A stretch of 55,273 bases of DNA from Eubacterium sp. GTDB lineage: Bacteria; Bacillota; Clostridia; Lachnospirales; Lachnospiraceae. Location: contig JAILAR010000063.1 in the NCBI GenBank assembly GCA_024681515.1, positions 1-55,273 of the forward strand. The letters run 5' to 3'. The position numbers were made by a program, and so were the translations under genes. The notes beneath the pieces are model-generated. The model saw nothing but the letters and a program-made list of their open reading frames with translations. It did not search any database and was not told the DNA's origin. Shown piece after piece: positions 19,930 to 31,220 of the stretch (its first letter is position 1; each line of letters opens with the position of its first letter).

Positions 19930-19958
19930 ATTATAGCATAGTTTCCCTGTTCCCGCAA
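19930..19958 (-). promoter_or_regulatory. Promoter of the butyrate operon
   Basis: Minus strand: TTGCGG (19953-19958), 17-base spacer ending TATGC, TATAAT (19930-19935), giving an extended -10. The leader of about 100 bases contains GAGCCTGCATGGCTC and a short stem before TTTTTATAAAAAA that could act as an attenuator; that part is weak. Confidence 0.75.
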
Positions 19959-20035: not shown

Positions 20036-21043
20036 TTAATCCGTGCGTTTGTCCTCATCCTGGATCATGATGTATTCTCCGGCCATTCCGGCCCCGGCAG
20101 CAACCACATTCTCCGGTTCATCCCCGGGAACCACCTTGACGCCCGTTTTTTCCTGCAGCAGACGTGCCATGCCGTAAAGCTGGCTTCCTCCGCCGGAAAG
20201 AAAGATCCCTTCCTTTGCCACATCAGATATCAGTTCCGCAGGAGCCGTCTCCAGAATACCGGTGATCGCCGTAACGATCTGATTCGTCTGCTCTTCAAAC
20301 GCCTCAACCGTCTCATTCGCCGAGAGCTCCAGCCTGACCGGAAGTCCGCTGAGCAGATTCTTTCCTTTCACCTCATAGGTAATATCCTGCTTCCGCTTCA
20401 TCACGGACCCGATCTCCACCTTCGCATCTTCCGCAGAAAGGCGACCCAGTTCCACATTGTACTTGCGTTTCACATATCTGGCAAGTGCCTCGGTATATGC
20501 CCCGCCTGCACACTTCACACTGGTCCCCGCCGCAATATTTCCCGCAGAAATGACAGCGATATCCGTGGTTCCTTCTCCGATATCCACTACCATATGTCCC
20601 AGCGTTTCCATGATATCCGCGCCGGTTCCGATTGCGGCCGCGATGGACGACTCCAGCACAAAGACCTGTCTTGCACCTGTACGAACCACTGCATCTTCCA
20701 CCGCACGGCGTTCCACCTCCGTGATACCGGTAGGTGTACATACGCAGATATTCGGTCTGCCCCAGATCTTCCGTTTTTTCAAAGCATTTTTTACAAACGC
20801 CTTGATCATCCGTTCCGCCAGTGTGTAATTTGAGATCACCCCGCCGGACAAAGGATACTCCACCTCGATCCCTTCCGGAGTTTTCCCCAGCATACGTTTT
20901 GCCTTGGAGCCGACTGCCAGGATCTTCTTCTCTTTCGGCTGGTAAGCAACTACTGCCGGCTGGTTGATCACGATCCCCTTATCCCGCATATAGATACAGA
21001 CATTTGCAGTTCCGAGATCAATTCCCATATCGATCCGATACAT
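20036..21043 (-). CDS. MreB/Mbl-like rod-shape actin homologue
   Basis: 335 residues. Bacterial actin of the MreB family: ATP-binding fold with phosphate-1 loop (DMGIDLGTANVCIY), connecting region, phosphate-2 loop (MVVDIGEGTTDIAVIS) and adenosine motif (GIFLSGGGSQLYGM). MreB polymers organise wall synthesis along the cell. There are no mreC/mreD genes beside it; instead it ends a four-gene block with two coiled-coil/repeat proteins and a YbjQ-like protein, suggesting an Mbl-type paralogue with a dedicated partner set (inference). ATG after AAAGGTGG. Confidence 0.93.
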   Translation of the reverse strand: MYRIDMGIDLGTANVCIYMRDKGIVINQPAVVAYQPKEKKILAVGSKAKRMLGKTPEGIEVEYPLSGGVISNYTLAERMIKAFVKNALKKRKIWGRPNICVCTPTGITEVERRAVEDAVVRTGARQVFVLESSIAAAIGTGADIMETLGHMVVDIGEGTTDIAVISAGNIAAGTSVKCAGGAYTEALARYVKRKYNVELGRLSAEDAKVEIGSVMKRKQDITYEVKGKNLLSGLPVRLELSANETVEAFEEQTNQIVTAITGILETAPAELISDVAKEGIFLSGGGSQLYGMARLLQEKTGVKVVPGDEPENVVAAGAGMAGEYIMIQDEDKRTD

Positions 21044-21139
21044 ATTACCACCTTTGTTATCTACCGTACTCGGCGTTTATCCATTTTCCGTAATACATAT
21101 CCGAAAACGAACGACACCTGTGCCGGTCTCCTACACAGA

Positions 21140-21173
21140 TTCACCCCGAGCGACAATGCCGCATCGGGGTGAA
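21140..21173 (-). other. Strong intergenic hairpin before the mreB-like gene
   Basis: Perfect 10-base arms (TTCACCCCGA and complement) with a 14-base loop, in the 203-base gap between the large coiled-coil gene and the mreB-like gene. No T tract follows, so it looks like an mRNA processing or stability element rather than a terminator. Confidence 0.6.
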
Positions 21174-21246
21174 CATCCGTGCTTTGCAAAGGCCATACGG
21201 TATGTCCGTCCCTGACGGGCGGCCTCTGCCCCACAGCTTTCAGTCT

Positions 21247-24200
21247 CTACTGGAAATCCTCCGCCAGTAGAACCTTCTTATTCGTATTTCCGTCTGCCTT
21301 CTCACGGATATCGCAACGTTCGATCGCGTCATCCACTGCCTTCAGCAAACGATCCAGGTTTCCGGTTTCCATTGCAAGGAACATGTTGCGAAGTTTGGCT
21401 TCGATGTTCTCAATTCCGGTATATCCTCTCTGAAGGATATAACCAAATGCAACGGTAAACATCTCATCATTTGTGATCTCTGAAAGATCGATCAGATAGC
21501 TGAATTCCGGAACCACGGACTTGCAGTCGGCAAACAGTTTGGAGATAGAATCGATCTCTCCTGTCAGTGCCAGTGCATAATCATGCTTATCCTTCTTTCC
21601 AAGCTCTACGATCTTTTTCAGGCGCTCAGGAGCGAGAAGCCCGGCATTTTCAACAACTATGCAGCCGCCGGCAAGTTTTGCCATATTTGCTTCCAGCTTG
21701 TCATCCGCCCACTTATTAAGACCCTTTGCGCCGATCTTCGCGATAACCTTGGAACTGCTGAGCCCCATGTCGTGATAACTTCTCGCATAATCCTCGCCGA
21801 CACAAACCGAGCCGAAGCCGTACTTTCCTAAGATCACAATATTTCTTGATTTTTCCGGTGCGGCAGCAATGGCATTGAAGGATTCAACGATTGCTTCGGA
21901 TGCATTATCGATACCGAGGTATTTTTCAAGATAATATGCAGCCAGCGGAAGGGTTCCCTCTTCAGTCGGCTGAGTCAGATCAATATCGATCTGGTCTGCT
22001 TCCTGCGCTCTCTTATTTGCCTCTTCCTCTGCCTTCTTTGCGTTCTCAAGAACCTTACGTGCCTCATCCGCCTTCTTCGAAGCTTCCGCTGCTTTCTGTA
22101 CCGCTGCCTCCCAGGCTTTCTTACGTGCCGTGGATGCTTCTTTCTGTTTAGCGATATCATCCGCTTTCTTCTTCTCTGCCGCTTTGATCTTATCCGCGGT
22201 TGCACGGACTGCCTTTGCGATCAGTTCTTCAACGGATTTCTTATGCGCTTCTGCTTCCGACTTTCTCTTCTCTGCTGCCGCAGCCTTCCGTGTTACCGCT
22301 TCGGCTTCACGATGCTTCTTCTCATCAGCTGCTTTCTTTGCAGCAGATTCCAGAGCCTTCTTCCGTACTTCCTCTTCTGCCGCTCTCTTTGCAGCCTCGG
22401 CAGCCGCCTTCTTGTCTTCTTCCGCGTATCGTTTTGCAGCTTCCTCGATGTCTTTCTTCTTCACATCGATGGCCTGCTTTGCAGCTGTTTCGGCTTTCTT
22501 TGCATCATCGAGACTCTTTGCCGCCTCAGCAACATGCTTTTCTGCCTCAACGACCTGCTTCTTGGCCTCTTCAACCTTGGCCTTTGCTTCGTCGACCTTG
22601 GCCTTTGCTTCGGTAACTTTGCCTTCCGCCGCCTCTACGCCTGCATGCGCCTCAGTTGCAGCAGCCTCAGCAGCCTTTACTGCCTCACGCCGCTGCGCTT
22701 CTTCCTCCTTGCGCTTTGCTGCGATCTCTTCTTTTTTCTTTGCTTCCTCTGCCTTCTTTGCTTCCGCTTCAGCTTCTTTCTTCTTAGCCTCTTCTTCCGC
22801 CTTCTTTGCAGCTTCCTCTTCCGCTTTCCGCTCCGCTTCCTGCTGAGCCTTTTCCTTCTCAGCCTCCTCGGCAAGACGCTTAGCTTCGTTCTCCTGGAAG
22901 AGCTTCTCGTCATCTTCGATCTTCTTCTTTGCAGCCTCTTCCTCTGCCTTTGCAGTTTCGATAGCTTTCTGAAGTTCTACGTCAACGCCTTTGATGATCT
23001 CCTCATCCTTCTGCTTTGCCTGAAGACCTTCCTCGGTAAGTCTTCTTACTTCTTCTTCAGCCTCCGCAACAGAAGCAATGATACGTTCTGCTTCTTCCGC
23101 CTGTCTGCGAGCCTCTTCCGCATCCTTCAGCGCTTTTTCCTTTGCAGCGATCCGAACCTCTTCTGCTTTCTTCTTTCTCGCCTCTTCCGCCGCTTTCTTT
23201 CTCTCTTCTTCAAGCGCTTTTCTCTTTGCTTCGTCTTCAGCTTTCTTCTTTGCAGCCTCTTCAGCACGCTTCTTCTTCGCTTCTTCCGAACGGATCCTGG
23301 ACTCTTCAAGCCGTTTCTGTTCTTCTTCCGCCTTCTTACGTGCCTCTTCTTCTGCCTTGCGGCGAAGTTCTTCTTCCGCCTTCTTCTTTGCCTCTTCCGC
23401 AGCCTTCTTTGCGTTTTCCTCTGCGTGTTTTGCATCTTCTTCAGCCTTCTTCTTGGCTGCTGCTTTCTCACGCGCTTCCGCAAGACGTCTCTGCTGCTCG
23501 TCGATATCACTGGTAGCCTTCTTCTTCGGCTTATCCTTCTTATCGCCTGCAGCCTGTTCCTGCTCCGGAGCCTCTTCCTTCTTCTCCTCACCCGCAGGAG
23601 CGTGATCCGCCACTTCTTTCAGCTGAGCATCGAATGCATCGTCATCATCATCGATGTCATACATGCTGTCCACGTCATTGGTCGGAGTCTTACGATTTGT
23701 CGGGAGAATGCTGTCCATTTCCGTCGGTTTTGCCGATTTGGACGCACCCTTTTCCCACTTTGCATCGCTTCCGTTAACAACCTTGGTTCCGTCAGCAGAA
23801 AACTTTGCGGTTTCCTTTCCTTTGGAGCCGCCGGTCTTTCCGCTTACGACCTTCACTTTGTCATCTTTGTCAGATGCTTTTTCCGGTTCCAGATTCAGGC
23901 CAAGACCACCTCCGGACGGCCTGGATCCAAGTCCTCCGGACTCCTTCTCTTTTCCACCAAGGCCGCCGCCAAGGCCACCCAAACCGCCGAGGCCGCCGCC
24001 AAGGCCGCCTCCGAGACCACCAAGGCCACCGCCGAGGCCGCCTCCGGTAAGTACTTCCGTCTCGCCGACATCATCATCCGGCTCGTCATTTCCTGCCGCT
24101 TCCGAGGTCGCTTCTTCCGGTTTTGTCTCGTCTTCCGGCTCGTACGGGATACCGAGTTCTTCCGCTCTCTTTTTGCGCTTCCGTTCCTCGATCTTGGCAA

Positions 24201-24384
24201 GTTCTTCCGGAGTCAGCGTCTTATATTTCGGCTTTCCACCCGCTTCTTCTTTTTTTGCCGCTGCACCTCTCTGGAGTGCACGCGCCTCCTGTTCCTTCTT
24301 CAGCTTTGCAGCCTTTTCCGCCTTCTCCTTCTCAACCTGCGCACGTACCGCAGCTATGAGCGCTTCTCTTTGGTCGATTGCCAC
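21247..24384 (-). CDS. Large Lys/Glu/Ala coiled-coil protein with C-terminal degenerate AAA domain
   Basis: 1045 residues; GTG start with GGAGG 8 bases upstream. Order: a short basic helix; an acidic stretch; a Gly-Leu tract (GGLGG units, about residues 114-145); an Asp-rich stretch (YDIDDDDDAFD); about 500 residues of uninterrupted Ala/Glu/Lys heptad-like helix (about 290-810); then a 230-residue globular domain. That domain resembles the CbbX/SpoVK group of AAA ATPases, but its Walker A is GKYGFGSVCVG (no GKT) and Walker B is GCIVVENAG (Asn for Asp/Glu), so ATP hydrolysis is unlikely. No signal or membrane segment: probably cytoplasmic. A scaffold role beside the MreB-like filament is inference. 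KEA-rich repeats may have low-complexity errors. Confidence 0.85.
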   Translation of the reverse strand: MAIDQREALIAAVRAQVEKEKAEKAAKLKKEQEARALQRGAAAKKEEAGGKPKYKTLTPEELAKIEERKRKKRAEELGIPYEPEDETKPEEATSEAAGNDEPDDDVGETEVLTGGGLGGGLGGLGGGLGGGLGGLGGLGGGLGGKEKESGGLGSRPSGGGLGLNLEPEKASDKDDKVKVVSGKTGGSKGKETAKFSADGTKVVNGSDAKWEKGASKSAKPTEMDSILPTNRKTPTNDVDSMYDIDDDDDAFDAQLKEVADHAPAGEEKKEEAPEQEQAAGDKKDKPKKKATSDIDEQQRRLAEAREKAAAKKKAEEDAKHAEENAKKAAEEAKKKAEEELRRKAEEEARKKAEEEQKRLEESRIRSEEAKKKRAEEAAKKKAEDEAKRKALEEERKKAAEEARKKKAEEVRIAAKEKALKDAEEARRQAEEAERIIASVAEAEEEVRRLTEEGLQAKQKDEEIIKGVDVELQKAIETAKAEEEAAKKKIEDDEKLFQENEAKRLAEEAEKEKAQQEAERKAEEEAAKKAEEEAKKKEAEAEAKKAEEAKKKEEIAAKRKEEEAQRREAVKAAEAAATEAHAGVEAAEGKVTEAKAKVDEAKAKVEEAKKQVVEAEKHVAEAAKSLDDAKKAETAAKQAIDVKKKDIEEAAKRYAEEDKKAAAEAAKRAAEEEVRKKALESAAKKAADEKKHREAEAVTRKAAAAEKRKSEAEAHKKSVEELIAKAVRATADKIKAAEKKKADDIAKQKEASTARKKAWEAAVQKAAEASKKADEARKVLENAKKAEEEANKRAQEADQIDIDLTQPTEEGTLPLAAYYLEKYLGIDNASEAIVESFNAIAAAPEKSRNIVILGKYGFGSVCVGEDYARSYHDMGLSSSKVIAKIGAKGLNKWADDKLEANMAKLAGGCIVVENAGLLAPERLKKIVELGKKDKHDYALALTGEIDSISKLFADCKSVVPEFSYLIDLSEITNDEMFTVAFGYILQRGYTGIENIEAKLRNMFLAMETGNLDRLLKAVDDAIERCDIREKADGNTNKKVLLAEDFQ

Positions 24385-24451
24385 TGATGTTACCTCCTTC
24401 TCATTCTGAATATTCAGACTGATTCCCCATTATAGTTTCCCAAAATTCTAT

Positions 24452-26461
24452 CTACAACTTGATGCCCAGAGATGCCAGCAAAGCTTCCGCTTCCCTTTGA
24501 AGCCGTTCTTCTTCCAACAGTCCCTCATCAAGTTTTTCATTTTCCGCCAGTGCATCCACTGTGGTTTTTTCCGTCTCCGCAGCTTTCTCGGCGATCGGTT
24601 CCGGTTCTTCTTCTGCAGTCGGTTCCGGTTCTTCCTCTGCGATCGGTTCCGGTTCCTCCTCGGTGGTCGGTTCCGGTTCCGCCTCGGCGATCGGTTCCGG
24701 TTCTTCTTCAACGATCGGTTCCCGTTCCTCTTTTGCGATCGGTTCCGGCTCTGCCTCGGCGATCGGTTCCGGTTCTTCCTCTGCGATCGGTTCCGGTTCT
24801 TCTTCTGCGATCGGTTCCGGCTCTTCTTCTACGATCGGTTCCGGTTCTTCTTCTACGATCGGTTCCGGTTCCTCCTCTGTGGTCTGGATTTCGGTCTCTT
24901 CCCAGGAGATCGGCTCCTCATCCCCGAACCCTTCCTCCGGCTCTTCATCAATGATCAGCCCGGGTTCCGGTTCTGTCACGGCTTCCGGTTCTTCCGGAGC
25001 CACAGCTTCCGGCTCTTCCTCGGCCACAGCTTCCGGTTCTTCCTCAGCCAAGGCTTCCGGTTCTTCCTCAGTCACAACCTGCTCTTCCTGTCGGATCGCA
25101 GCGCACAGATTTAAAATGCTCAGCGGACTCTGATCAGCCTCTTCTTCCACTTCATCCAGAGCGGAAATGTCATCCGTCTCCGCTGCGAATCCGTCATCAA
25201 AATCAACGCTGATCATCTGCTCCAGCCTTGCCTGAGCTTCTGCATCAGGATCTTTTTCCGGTTCCGTTTTCAATTCGGGCGCTGTTGATCCATCCGTTTT
25301 TCCGGCCGTACCGGCAGATGTTTCGTCCTTCGGAACACTTTCCGAATCAGGTTCCGGCTTCACACTTGAATCCGCACCGGATGTTGCTTCCCCGGCGGAA
25401 CCCTCTCCCTGATCCGTCATTTTTTTATCCGTGTCTTTATCCGACTCTTTATCAGCCGGCATTGTATCTGCCGCGCCGTCCTTTATTTCAGCATCCTGTT
25501 CTCCGGAATTCCCGTTATCGGCCGATTCCTGAACGGCAGATTCCTGAGCCTCCGAACCGTCTCCGGAGCCTTCCTGCTGATCAGACACCTCACCGTCAGA
25601 AGCTTTGCCGTCCGTTTCCTCTGCGTCTGCCTCATCCGCATTCTTTTTGCGGAACTTCCGCTTCAGGAAGGATTTAAATTTCTTCTCTGCTCCCGACTCT
25701 TCCAGAATTTCAGCCGTCTCTGAGTCAACTCCCGGATCAGAAACCGTATCTGCCTGTTCCTCTTCCAATGCCGCAGGATGAAGCCGCAGATAATCTTTTT
25801 TCAGCTGCTCCTTCTCCAGAGTTCGGATTTCTTCCTCCTCAGAACGATTGTCTGCCCGTTTCTCCTTTGCGTAGATCCAGAACAGATCCTCCGCCTTTTT
25901 CTTTCCACCGGTGACATCCTGAATATCATCCAGACGGTTGCTTCTTCGGAAAGTAGCTTTATAATCCGCCGCCAGTATTTCCGTATCCTCACCCTGCATC
26001 GTCATCAGCAGGAACAGTTCAAAACTCCACTCTTCGTCCAACGCATGGGTGTAATAAGGTTCCAGAAGCCCCCTCAGTTCATCCAGTCCGGCATGCCGTG
26101 ACTTCTGGATCACATATGTAAGCTTACTGATCTCCTGCTCATTTCCCTTTGCGTTTGCTATGTACTGCTCCTGATACTGCTCTGCCAGATCAAAATACCC
26201 TTGTTTCAGGTAAAATGTGATAATGGAGAACAGGATCCGGTTGGATTCCGGCCCCATGATATGTGCCTTCACATACATGTTTCTCGCATCCGCGAGGCGC
26301 CCTACATTTTCATAAATCTCGCCGCACACCCGCAAAAACTGCGGATTCAGGGATTTCTCCAGATTCTGGGAATCCAGGATCTCCACGGCCAGACTGTACT
26401 CTCTTGCTTCCGCCAGCTCCTTTATTTTGTTTACACTCGTCATACTCAGACCGGAGCTCAA
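24452..26461 (-). CDS. Helical-repeat-like protein with Glu-Pro repeat tail
   Basis: About 669 residues if started at the TTG at 26461, which has GAGGTG 7 bases upstream; the first ATG (26443) lacks a good site. Residues 1-150 form helical repeats of TPR type (LAVEILDSQNLEKSLNPQFLRVCGEIYENVG, in parts). Then a basic segment (KKFKSFLKRKFRKKN), a long acidic Ser/Asp/Glu region, an 8-residue Glu-Glu-Glu-Pro-Glu-Pro-Ile-Ala repeat (12 units) preceded by four EEPEAV units, and a C-terminal amphipathic helix ending LLASLGIKL. Function unknown; intrinsically disordered linker between two binding ends is a reasonable reading. Between the YbjQ-like and coiled-coil genes. Confidence 0.82.
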   Translation of the reverse strand: MSSGLSMTSVNKIKELAEAREYSLAVEILDSQNLEKSLNPQFLRVCGEIYENVGRLADARNMYVKAHIMGPESNRILFSIITFYLKQGYFDLAEQYQEQYIANAKGNEQEISKLTYVIQKSRHAGLDELRGLLEPYYTHALDEEWSFELFLLMTMQGEDTEILAADYKATFRRSNRLDDIQDVTGGKKKAEDLFWIYAKEKRADNRSEEEEIRTLEKEQLKKDYLRLHPAALEEEQADTVSDPGVDSETAEILEESGAEKKFKSFLKRKFRKKNADEADAEETDGKASDGEVSDQQEGSGDGSEAQESAVQESADNGNSGEQDAEIKDGAADTMPADKESDKDTDKKMTDQGEGSAGEATSGADSSVKPEPDSESVPKDETSAGTAGKTDGSTAPELKTEPEKDPDAEAQARLEQMISVDFDDGFAAETDDISALDEVEEEADQSPLSILNLCAAIRQEEQVVTEEEPEALAEEEPEAVAEEEPEAVAPEEPEAVTEPEPGLIIDEEPEEGFGDEEPISWEETEIQTTEEEPEPIVEEEPEPIVEEEPEPIAEEEPEPIAEEEPEPIAEAEPEPIAKEEREPIVEEEPEPIAEAEPEPTTEEEPEPIAEEEPEPTAEEEPEPIAEKAAETEKTTVDALAENEKLDEGLLEEERLQREAEALLASLGIKL
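24590..24885 (-). repeat. 24-base in-frame tandem repeats encoding the Glu-Pro tail
   Basis: About 12 imperfect 24-base units, each coding for an EEEPEPIA-type octapeptide with variants (V, T, K, R substitutions). The unit length is a multiple of three, so gain or loss of units would keep the reading frame. A second set of four shorter EEPEAV-type units lies at about 24976-25080. Confidence 0.9.
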
Positions 26462-26512
26462 GTTACTTCACCTCAAATCTTTGAAACTTAATTTGAATAT
26501 TTATGAAAAATC

Positions 26513-27604
26513 TTAATGATCTTCTTCCTCAAATACCTTTTCAACCTTCTCGATCACGGTATCCTTCATGTTGCCGCGCGTCTTTTCGTACTGCAGGCCG
26601 GACTCCATGATCTCAAGAAGCTGAAGACGATGCTTGGGTTCAATGGACTTGATATAATCCATCAGCACATCCTTGATCTCAATGACATACTCTTTCTCAC
26701 GCATCCGCTCGATCATCTCTTCATAATTGAAGGTGGTCGTGATCCGGATATCGTCATGCTTCCGTCCGCATACAATACATTCATCCGTACCCGCTTCGTT
26801 CACATGACCGCAGTTGCAGGTCCAGATCATGCCGTCGGTCTGATACTTTTCAACCGCATCGATCCCTCGTTTCTGTTTCAGGGATTCCAGACGATGCGCC
26901 GACATGGAGACATTGATCGGTGTATCATTGCATGCATAGATCGCACGCGGCGTTGCATATTTGCTGACGATCACCTTTGCCTCTTTCAGAAGACGGACAT
27001 CATTGGCGGAGATCTGTGCCGGAACCAGTCCGGATTCGATCTGCTGCACATTTCCTTTATCGAATACAAAATCGATATCCTTGATCACCAGACGTTCATC
27101 ATAGACGTTGGTCAGTTCTACACTGGCGCGGATCGCCAGGATATCATCCTTATTGTAGTTAAAGAACAGCACCTTCATGTTGATATTGTCCTTATCGCCT
27201 TCCAATGTCACACGCACCGGACGCGGAACCAGCCGCTCATAATAGTTCATAACCACCAGTTCCTTGTGTACCGGCGGCTCCGGCTTCGGAAGCTCCCGAA
27301 GCGTAACTGCGGTTCCGTAGATCACCGCACCAAAAGAACCACCCTCAAGAGTTGTATAGATCGCCTGTACTCCGAGAATGGCATTTGCTTTCTTCTTCTT
27401 TGCAGCCTTGATCAGAAGCTTCTCGGCATCCTCTCTGGCTTTTTCAACTTTTACGAGATCCTGCTCGGATGCATTCGTCATACTTGCGGCGAAACCTTTG
27501 ATAAAATTGGATCCCAGGATTGCTTCCCCGCATACGACCCCAAGATACTCTGCAACTTCATACCCCTCAAAGCCCGTTCCTGTAGTCAGCATTATGTCAG
27601 ACAT
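26513..27604 (-). CDS. YbjQ-like (heavy-metal-binding domain) protein with C-terminal zinc ribbon
   Basis: 363 residues. N-terminal domain of the YbjQ/UPF0145 type (TGTGFEGYEVAEYLGVVCGEAILGSN in parts, then KKKKANAILGVQAIYTTLE), which usually forms pentamers; a middle domain of unknown type (residues about 125-250); a four-cysteine zinc ribbon (CNCGHVNEAG...CIVCGR); and a helical C-terminus. Biochemical role unknown. It is the promoter-proximal gene of the four-gene block. ATG with GGAGG 11 bases upstream; an extended -10 (TATGC-TATACT) lies at about 27706-27716. Confidence 0.85.
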   Translation of the reverse strand: MSDIMLTTGTGFEGYEVAEYLGVVCGEAILGSNFIKGFAASMTNASEQDLVKVEKAREDAEKLLIKAAKKKKANAILGVQAIYTTLEGGSFGAVIYGTAVTLRELPKPEPPVHKELVVMNYYERLVPRPVRVTLEGDKDNINMKVLFFNYNKDDILAIRASVELTNVYDERLVIKDIDFVFDKGNVQQIESGLVPAQISANDVRLLKEAKVIVSKYATPRAIYACNDTPINVSMSAHRLESLKQKRGIDAVEKYQTDGMIWTCNCGHVNEAGTDECIVCGRKHDDIRITTTFNYEEMIERMREKEYVIEIKDVLMDYIKSIEPKHRLQLLEIMESGLQYEKTRGNMKDTVIEKVEKVFEEEDH

Positions 27605-27772
27605 GTTTTTCTGTTCCTCCCATTAAGTAACAAATTTCCAGGTAGTATGGTGCAGAATCAATAAAATTCCGCCCTTCTCCTGCACTTTGCACGTACACTT
27701 CTAAAGTATAGCATAGAATCCACGCAAATGAAACCAAAAAATAAAACAAAACGCCGCACCTGTGTGTGTTTT

Positions 27773-30065: not shown

Positions 30066-31220
30066 TCATGACAGGATCACCGTCAGAGCCTCCTTCGCAC
30101 CTGCCACATCTCCCCGATTGAGGGCCCGGCTGGCCTTCAGGATCTTCAGTCTGGAAGTTTCCGACATGTCATAGGTCTGGAGTCGGTCCATGCTTGCAAC
30201 CGCATCCTCCACCTCGGACTCGTTCAGAAGATCCAGCACATCCTTCGCCATCGCTTCCACATCTCCCCAATGCAGATAGATGCCGTTGGTCCTGGCCTTC
30301 TTCGTCATGGTCGCAACCAGTTCCACATTTCTGCCGAGATACATGGCCACACCGGAAACCACACGTTCCCAGGTAAGCAGCGTCCGTCCCCAGATGTGTT
30401 CCGCCACATCCAGGCTGTCATCCTTGCTCATATTCACATGATCGTCAAATACATCCGCCAGATATCTGGCACCGATCACTCTCGCAGACTCCCGCACCTC
30501 ACGGGCGCTTTCCATATAGGAATTCACATCGTTTCCGAACACATACAGGGACAGCTTGCCACGGTATTCCTCATACAGATCGCAGAACCTGCCCATCTGA
30601 ACCTTATACTCTGCCATGTCTCCGCCATTCGCAGCCAGTCCGTCTGTGAAAGAGATCCCACATGGCTGCAGGGCCTTGGCCGCACCTGCGCGTTCCTCGA
30701 TCTGTGCGATGAGGCGCGGATCCTGAGGAAGCATTTTCTGAGGCAGATTATCCAGAAGGACTTTGCAAAACAGCGATTCATCCACCGGCATGCGAAGCAC
30801 ACCCTTGAATCCGTTTTTCAGGATCTCCTCCTCCGGAGTCCGGTCCGTCGGATCCACCAGTGCATAGATCTTGGAATCACGACACTTGCTTTCTTTTGTG
30901 GAGCGAATGTTTCTGAGGGTCTGTGCGCCGTCCATCAGCGGCAGATCCTTTGCGATACAGATGATATCGTATTTATCCTTGAGCACCCGCTCCATACACG
31001 CCATACCGGTATGCGAAACCGTCGTGATGCACCCCAGCTTGTCCGACAGTTTCTTCAGTTCGATCAGGTCGTCTCCTTTTTTGTCGATCAGAAGCACATA
31101 GCACTTGCCCATGTTCTGATCCAGCTTAAACTCCGGAATCGGTTCCTCTTCCGGTTCCTCTTCGATCCCGCGGATCTGATTTAATTTCTTTAATGCACTT
31201 TCTTTCAGATTCTCGAGCAT
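30066..31220 (-). CDS. Pseudo-receiver plus pseudo-HPt domain protein
   Basis: 384 residues. Residues about 38-160 have the response-regulator fold (YVLLIDKKGDDLIELKKL, DIICIAKDLPLMDGAQTL, GFKGVLRMPVDES), but the position of the phosphoacceptor Asp, four before the Pro of PLMDG, is Ala, and the usual Lys-Pro is Met-Pro. Residues about 185-300 look like a histidine phosphotransfer domain (GISFTDGLAANGGDMAEYKVQM in parts; SAREVRESARVIGARYL), where the expected His is Arg. Both phosphorylation sites therefore appear lost. A C-terminal helical region follows. It may act as a phosphorylation-independent adaptor. ATG after GAGGAACAGG; tyrS lies upstream. Confidence 0.75.
   Translation of the reverse strand: MLENLKESALKKLNQIRGIEEEPEEEPIPEFKLDQNMGKCYVLLIDKKGDDLIELKKLSDKLGCITTVSHTGMACMERVLKDKYDIICIAKDLPLMDGAQTLRNIRSTKESKCRDSKIYALVDPTDRTPEEEILKNGFKGVLRMPVDESLFCKVLLDNLPQKMLPQDPRLIAQIEERAGAAKALQPCGISFTDGLAANGGDMAEYKVQMGRFCDLYEEYRGKLSLYVFGNDVNSYMESAREVRESARVIGARYLADVFDDHVNMSKDDSLDVAEHIWGRTLLTWERVVSGVAMYLGRNVELVATMTKKARTNGIYLHWGDVEAMAKDVLDLLNESEVEDAVASMDRLQTYDMSETSRLKILKASRALNRGDVAGAKEALTVILS

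Follow-up and report, generated by a model that had tools for sequence, protein, structure and literature searches.

A second MreB in a conserved gene block with a split TPR/AAA-like protein in a branch of Lachnospiraceae

Introduction

The closest described relatives of the locus analyzed here are the actins MreB and Mbl of the mreBCD elongasome, AAA+ proteins of the CbbX/SpoVK type, EccA of type VII secretion, which has a TPR-like front and a CbbX-type AAA domain, and the YbjQ/DUF74 proteins, whose solved relatives are pentamers. For MreB, E140 is described as the catalytic residue, which together with T167 positions the attacking water (excerpted text of PMC4051119). The corresponding mutant of MreB5 from Spiroplasma is deficient in ATPase activity and still assembles, with impaired dynamics and altered membrane binding (excerpt of PMC9195046), and the MreB paralogs of Bacillus subtilis co-polymerize (excerpt of PMC7641798). 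Here we describe a block of four genes in a 55,273 nt stretch of Eubacterium sp. DNA (GCA_024681515.1, contig JAILAR010000063.1; called the window in the following), which is contig C186 of the assembly we refer to as G000 (3.13 Mb, 197 contigs). The block encodes a second MreB (MreB2), a long protein with a CbbX-type AAA-like domain, a TPR/Glu-Pro protein and a YbjQ-like protein (YbjQL).

A first-pass annotation, made from the sequence alone, had suggested an intracellular scaffold or shape system, which we consider plausible. To a more specific reading we give just short of an even chance: a second MreB, non-hydrolyzing in the branch of the window, would serve the wall cytoskeleton together with an inert AAA hub and non-enzymatic partners, probably from one transcription unit. 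It is drawn from the constant neighborhood on one strand, promoter-like boxes at the block boundaries, co-occurrence in nine genomes, the lack of an mreB beside mreC, the MreB tree and the pattern at the catalytic site. The anatomy of the block is well supported, and from it we infer that its products may form a physical complex and a filament with a role at the wall. All parts come from known superfamilies. Searches of open-licence PMC text, none of which was aimed at the pattern of the operonic MreBs, returned no paper on this set of genes, on a pseudo-AAA protein split over two genes or on a catalytic MreB paired with a non-catalytic one.

Gene arrangement and conservation of the block

In the window, the four genes follow each other on the minus strand in the order ybjQL (26513..27604, 363 aa), the TPR/Glu-Pro gene (24452..26461, 669 aa, TTG start), the AAA gene (21247..24384, 1045 aa, GTG start) and mreB2 (20036..21043, 335 aa). 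The gaps of 51, 67 and 203 bases agree with the 50 to 200 bases of the first-pass annotation, and putative ribosome-binding sites, judged by eye, precede all four starts.

Scanning named genomes with the AAA-like domain yielded 69 loci. Their titles are mostly Lachnospiraceae or Eubacterium, with a few Clostridium, Clostridiaceae, Clostridiales and Eubacteriales and two Bacteroides or Bacteroidales; named hosts include Eubacterium ruminantium ATCC 17233 and FB3002 as well as Lachnospiraceae AC2029, AC2031, NE2001, LC2019 and C6A11. An MreB gene lies at most two genes downstream of the AAA gene in 65 of the 69 loci, the other four being two short solo paralogs (L149, L150), a fused protein of genome G131 (L176) and L177. 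A TPR gene is found at most two genes ahead of the AAA gene in 42 of 44 loci with enough flanking sequence (68 non-fused loci minus 24 with less than 2.5 kb ahead of the AAA gene), and both misses are solo paralogs. YbjQL is encoded upstream in 41 of the 42 loci having the TPR gene; the exception, L177, reaches the contig end. Directly adjacent pairs within the block are co-oriented without exception (29/29, 39/39 and 64/64 from ybjQL to mreB2); the medians of their gaps are 27, 39 and 109 bases. Of 50 loci that could be judged, 39 have the outer neighbor thl no more than two genes from mreB2. The neighborhood survey proposed with the first-pass annotation thus returned a constant partner set and not four genes that are rarely together.

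Among 397 family genomes, we identified the split-related AAA type (maximum e-value of 1e-25) in ten, one of which (G131) has a fused protein, and YbjQL (maximum e-value of 1e-30) in twelve, with nine genomes shared. All nine carry an MreB2-type gene, in eight cases beside the pair. The exceptions to the co-occurrence are G131, without YbjQL at this threshold, G330 and G157, which have only a distant YbjQL, and the fragmented assembly G334, in which ybjQL, a phosphatase-like gene, a rhomboid gene, the TPR gene and the start of the AAA gene stand together (L082). Gene content and order support that the four genes recur as a constant set in one branch of rumen and gut Lachnospiraceae.

Promoter-like boxes at the block boundaries

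We searched for extended −10 boxes (TGN-TATAAT-like) between directly adjacent genes, covering the last 30 bases of the preceding gene, the gap and the first 60 bases of the following gene; 20 rounds of shuffling that preserved only the single-base content served as control. At the upstream boundary (dfrA-ybjQL), 29 of 32 loci had a box, against a mean of 4.75 after shuffling; at the downstream boundary (mreB2-thl), it was 22 of 23, against 4.8. Inside the block, the numbers were 3/29 for ybjQL-TPR (shuffled 2.5), 3/39 for TPR-AAA (2.75) and 15/64 for AAA-mreB2 (10.65). In the window, the boxes read TGC-TATACT between dfrA and ybjQL (27705..27713, minus strand) and TGC-TATAAT at the downstream end of the block, between mreB2 and thl (19930..19938, minus strand). 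Because such boxes stand at both ends and stay near the shuffled level inside, the block is probably one transcription unit with its own ends. A consensus promoter and terminator scan of the window was uninformative (13 promoter-like sites, 7.6 expected).

MreB2 is a sister of the canonical MreB

The assignment of the block's actin as MreB-like was borne out by a match to Pfam MreB_Mbl with an e-value of 3.3e-110 (368 bits, cut-off 27) and to NCBIfam NF010539 (363, cut-off 293); the score for TIGR00904 was 332, below its cut-off of 366. It is, in addition, a second MreB. G000 has two MreBs at a maximum e-value of 1e-40, and the genomes of the block branch hold a canonical MreB along with mreC, except G002, which lacks the canonical one. 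As the first-pass annotation had noted, neither mreC nor mreD lies near the block; the mreC of G000 is on contig C4 and mreB2 on C186.

We found mreC in 13 of 13 genomes checked. No mreB was found adjoining it in any of the 11 branch genomes (G000, G160, G070, G002, G188, G040, G106, G129, G180, G334 and G131). An adjoining mreB, here called operonic, was present in G157 and G330, the two genomes with a distant YbjQL, and in 28 of 30 comparison genomes, which represent the best 30 mreC scores of the 94 mreC-bearing genomes among 100 family genomes and no random draw.

In an MreB tree of 56 rows with 17 sampled MreB2 sequences, made with a quick method with only the Shimodaira-Hasegawa-like approximate likelihood ratio test (SH-aLRT) as support, MreB2 and the G002 gene cluster together (93) beside canonical MreB (94). 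The operonic MreBs are separate (100, branch length 1.54), and several of them are long-branched, so that their exact place is unsure. Judged by sequence relationship, MreB2 is sister to canonical MreB, in genomes whose mreC locus has no adjoining mreB. The idea that MreB2 is the relocated operonic mreB was rejected on the same tree, with the long-branch warning for the operonic rows.

We mapped the site of Caulobacter crescentus E140 through an alignment to 4czf, taking the start of the construct as M-I9 according to the excerpted text of PMC4051119. All 22 canonical MreBs have glutamate at this site and all 30 operonic MreBs lack it (Lys 22, Arg 8). The 66 distinct MreB2 sequences divide into 37 with Glu, 23 with Ser, 5 with Ala and 1 with Thr; the window has Ser132 (20648..20650, minus strand). 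The water-coordinating Thr is kept in 66/66. In a tree of MreB2, the loss of the glutamate appears as a single change (branch support 99) that affects 29 of the 66 sequences and includes the window. The MreB2 branch of the window has, by sequence, lost the catalytic glutamate, which is also missing in the checked operonic MreBs of other Lachnospiraceae. A dead actin as a property of the whole system was rejected, since 37 of 66 MreB2 sequences keep the residue.

MreB2 therefore resembles MreB/Mbl of the elongasome in its MreB_Mbl match and the kept Thr, but lies away from mreC and mreD, has Ser for the catalytic Glu in the window and is accompanied by YbjQ, TPR and AAA-like genes. With the operonic MreBs of other Lachnospiraceae it shares that it is the cell's other MreB besides the canonical one and that, in the window's branch, the glutamate is missing. 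It differs in its distant place in the tree and in having Ser, Ala or Thr at the site, whereas the operonic proteins have Lys or Arg and adjoin mreC.

The 30 operonic MreBs with Lys or Arg come from loci L199-L218, L221-L228, L187 and L196, several of them long-branched; the operonic mreB of Lachnospiraceae may encode a pseudo-MreB family-wide.

The first-pass annotation had considered all four proteins cytoplasmic. A simple hydropathy scan of the block proteins indeed revealed no transmembrane stretch (largest 19-residue mean 1.45). However, Ile93-Trp94 of MreB2 (20762..20767, minus strand) align with the membrane-inserting hydrophobic loop of Thermotoga maritima MreB (1jce), and a hydrophobic pair is found there in 61 of 66 MreB2 sequences. 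The same column test succeeds for only 3 of 16 other MreBs, in which the loop aligns shifted, and is thus weak. MreB2 appears more likely to sit at the membrane side than to be purely cytoplasmic.

The TPR and AAA-like proteins are halves of one protein

The first-pass annotation had counted four separate proteins. The four open reading frames (ORFs) stand, but two of the products, the TPR/Glu-Pro protein and the giant with the AAA domain, are not independent, as they form halves of one chain in other Lachnospiraceae. In 33 of 34 fetched loci of the other type, with genes called by codon usage, a match to the TPR front (first 190 residues of the window protein) and the AAA tail are encoded in one ORF; L043 lacks the TPR-front match, and for L060 and L063 it took a profile, and not a single sequence, to detect the AAA tail. 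The fused ORFs span 534 to 1656 aa, mostly 800 to 1000. By this comparison, the two proteins of the window correspond to the N- and C-terminal halves of one TPR/linker/CbbX-type AAA protein. The AAA-domain profile matched 90 of 120 family genomes at a maximum e-value of 1.3e-35, including five of the split type (counted by hand); weaker matches, down to 1e-8, occur in 119 of 120, and among them are other proteins resembling CbbX. Among 291 Clostridia genomes, nine matched at a maximum e-value of 1e-30, all from the own genome or the same family.

The nearest fused protein is that of G131, a single chain of 1108 aa with, in order, the TPR, a motif similar to the beginning of the split-type AAA protein (REELIAAVRAQVERERAAKG vs REALIAAVRAQVEKEKAEKA), then an Ala/Glu repeat and, last, the AAA domain. 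In the AAA tree, 26 split forms and G131 are set apart from 17 sampled fused forms (support 100/99). The position of G131 at the base of the split branch is poorly resolved and compatible with both an ancestral and a re-fused protein. In G131 (L079, L195), one MreB was detected at a maximum e-value of 1e-20.

The helical-repeat-like front that had been proposed for the Glu-Pro protein is consistent with a weak Pfam TPR match in the window protein (e-value 0.011) and with TPR models matching up to 41 of 44 aligned members (maximum e-value of 0.05). The acidic tail contains EEEPEP repeats at residues 529-622 (24590..24877, minus strand). In the AAA protein, the region from residue 250 to the AAA domain (540 residues; 22015..23634, minus strand) consists of 25% Ala, 23% Glu and 21% Lys, and runs for at most 217 residues without Pro or Gly. 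The composition underlying the formerly claimed 500-residue coiled coil is thus real; the coiled coil itself is a reading of composition and no prediction, and the same holds for the presumed long helix. TolA as the identity of this region was rejected (NCBIfam e-value 0.00047 against a 213-bit cut-off) and taken as a composition match.

The giant has no Pfam match at a maximum e-value of 0.1, and its own AAA sequence reaches only 0.016 with NCBIfam SpoVK. Its assignment as a degenerate AAA protein, already made in the first-pass annotation, holds through the profiles of its relatives and the predicted fold. The family profile of the domain (21250..22014, minus strand) matched CbbX (3zuh) with an e-value of 2.7e-22 and EccA1 (9lur) with 2.7e-13. 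The NCBIfam models SpoVK and CbbX matched 45/46 and 44/46 members at a maximum e-value of 0.05 (best 1.2e-12), all below the curated cut-offs shown. The predicted structure of the window domain (predicted local distance difference test, pLDDT, 91) has CbbX proteins as its four best PDB hits, with an e-value of 1.6e-9 and a template modeling score of ~0.5 for 3zuh.

At its C-terminus, the giant has the degenerate P-loop GKYGFGSV with Ser in place of the lysine (21808..21810, minus strand). None of the 69 split-type sequences, among which are that of the window and those of two solo paralogs, has the P-loop Lys, compared with 28 of 34 fused sequences. The second Walker-B position is Asn in all 69 split-type sequences; 5 of the 34 fused ones keep the acid. 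Sequence and fold place the domain in the CbbX/SpoVK type, lacking the P-loop lysine and the second Walker-B acid. From CbbX/SpoVK proteins of the same fold and sequence family it differs by these losses, a long helix-like arm and the TPR in the fused relatives.

The match to EccA1 raises the alternative of an EccA-like remodeling factor, in which the TPR and CbbX-type AAA parts would act as an ATP-driven chaperone for secretion or an enzyme complex. Walker A, kept in 28 of 34 fused members, would agree with this, but both active-site residues are missing throughout the split type, and Walker A occurs with the second Walker-B acid in only four of 34 fused members, one of which has the full Asp-Glu pair. 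The block protein also differs from EccA by its long acidic or helical linker, the dead active site, the MreB neighbor and the division of TPR and AAA over two genes in the window, where the fused relatives have one chain. We regard this alternative as very improbable.

A storage-carbohydrate function is suggested by the neighbors of the fused gene. The co-oriented gene immediately downstream is glgB in 15 of the 34 loci and encodes an amylase in one further locus (16 in total, e.g., L046, L047, L054, L069 and L074); one glgB and the amylase were verified with Pfam. The median gap is 53 bases, and no extended −10 box was found in these gaps (shuffled mean 1.45). The TPR/AAA protein might thus organize polyglucan or glycogen, and the block would link storage-carbohydrate enzymes to an actin-like scaffold instead of the wall. 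Old gene order may, however, explain glgB, as ksgA lies directly downstream in six other fused loci and directly upstream in three that keep glgB. Moreover, glgB was not matched in ten block loci examined. This explanation seems unlikely to us, though less so than the EccA-like one.

Some further observations concern the AAA genes. Short solo paralogs of the split protein (~370-440 aa) are present at L035:8546-9811 (G000:C111), L084:9402-10661 (G160:C1), L149 and L150, with no MreB, TPR or YbjQL neighbor in the stretch covered. In L076:11546-14498 (G129), the AAA gene appears as two ORFs, reflecting either an assembly fault or a genuine break. In four of the 34 fused loci (L040, L050, L059 and L074), a large gene (~1470-1490 aa in three) and partners, one with DUF6063, are found no more than four genes away from the fused one; this set is perhaps SMC-like MksB/E/F, although the large protein has no Pfam match.

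YbjQL

YbjQL consists of an N-terminal YbjQ (DUF74) domain, a beta-rich middle domain, a C-x-C...C-x2-C zinc ribbon and a helical tail. The YbjQ-like domain of the first-pass annotation was recovered with Pfam YbjQ_1 (e-value 1.9e-15) and in the predicted structure (pLDDT 80, predicted template modeling score 0.49), whose N-terminal domain matches 1y2i and 1vr4. For the middle domain, structure comparison yielded no solved structure that stood out beyond the YbjQ part. The four zinc-ribbon cysteines C263, C265, C276 and C279 (26768..26818, minus strand) are conserved without exception in two alignments, with 12 and 41 sequences. The protein is thus like YbjQ/DUF74 proteins in its N-terminal domain by Pfam and fold, and differs by the extra beta domain, the zinc ribbon and the helical tail. 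Among 200 family genomes, its profile matched 37 at a maximum e-value of 1e-10, mostly over the YbjQ domain only, and nine at 1e-100, namely eight block genomes and G002.

Possible function and competing explanations

In the mechanism that we tentatively favor, MreB2 would replace the ATPase-dead operonic MreB and co-polymerize with, or run beside, the canonical hydrolyzing MreB under the membrane, giving long-lived filaments. The AAA-like domain would be an oligomeric hub and no motor, with the long helix as its spacer arm; the TPR half would be an arm that binds clients, and YbjQL a further adaptor. Together, these proteins might keep the elongation cytoskeleton in place or spaced, with no turnover of ATP.

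A bolder version, which we consider rather doubtful, is a module of two dead ATPases, i.e., a non-hydrolyzing MreB and a CbbX-type pseudo-AAA hub with long helical arms. It would have arisen when a TPR-AAA protein found across the family was split and the MreB glutamate was lost a second time, independently of its earlier loss in the operonic MreB of Lachnospiraceae. The wall cytoskeleton of this family would then run on a pair of actins, one hydrolyzing and one not.

Several results weigh against a shared cytoskeletal function. The MreB2-type gene of G002 lies on a separate contig next to ygiQ, hence linkage is not obligatory. Neither MreB2 nor YbjQL was found in G131, although its fused protein is the nearest one and its mreC has no mreB next to it, and two comparison genomes, G048 and G019, also have no mreB beside mreC, with the block not seen. 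No mre neighbor of the fused ortholog was found in the loci looked at, and its direct succession by glgB or amylase in 16 of 34 loci is the strongest competing clue. To these are added the glutamate retained in most MreB2 sequences, the selection of the comparison genomes by score, the quick tree and the weak loop test.

MreB2 may instead be a mere replacement for the elongasome actin next to an unrelated TPR/AAA/YbjQ operon, possibly sharing its transcription without forming a complex. This would fit the detached gene of G002, the missing mre neighbor of the fused ortholog and the gap between the AAA gene and mreB2, which is the longest in the block (median 109 bases) and has a box in 15 of 64 loci, against 10.65 after shuffling. 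On the other hand, MreB2 accompanies the AAA gene in 65 of 69 loci, whereas the outer neighbor thl is near MreB2 in 39 of 50, and nine of ten genomes with the AAA type also have YbjQL and an MreB2-type gene. We consider simple replacement possible, yet on the doubtful side.

With the cytoskeletal reading, a constant partner set is identified for a bacterial actin outside mreBCD, and a large uncharacterized Lachnospiraceae family (TPR/linker/CbbX-type AAA) would gain its first cytoskeletal link. Every operonic MreB checked fits a pattern of one catalytic MreB and one without the catalytic glutamate. If a new MreB was gained where the old one is absent and the same residue was lost again, the purpose of MreB ATP hydrolysis would become testable in cultured species such as Eubacterium ruminantium. 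That the actin and the AAA-like half both lack residues for ATP use in the window copy hints at a fuel-free part of the cytoskeleton.

Flanking genes

In the window, thyA and dfrA precede the block, and thl-crt-hbd-bcd-etfB-etfA follow it; dfrA was verified with Pfam, and the other names were read from the sequence. At 30066-31220, the window encodes a protein with a receiver-like domain (Response_reg, e-value 7e-6, below cut-off). A relative is encoded 5′ of thyA in 17 of the 69 named AAA loci, many others being too short to judge.

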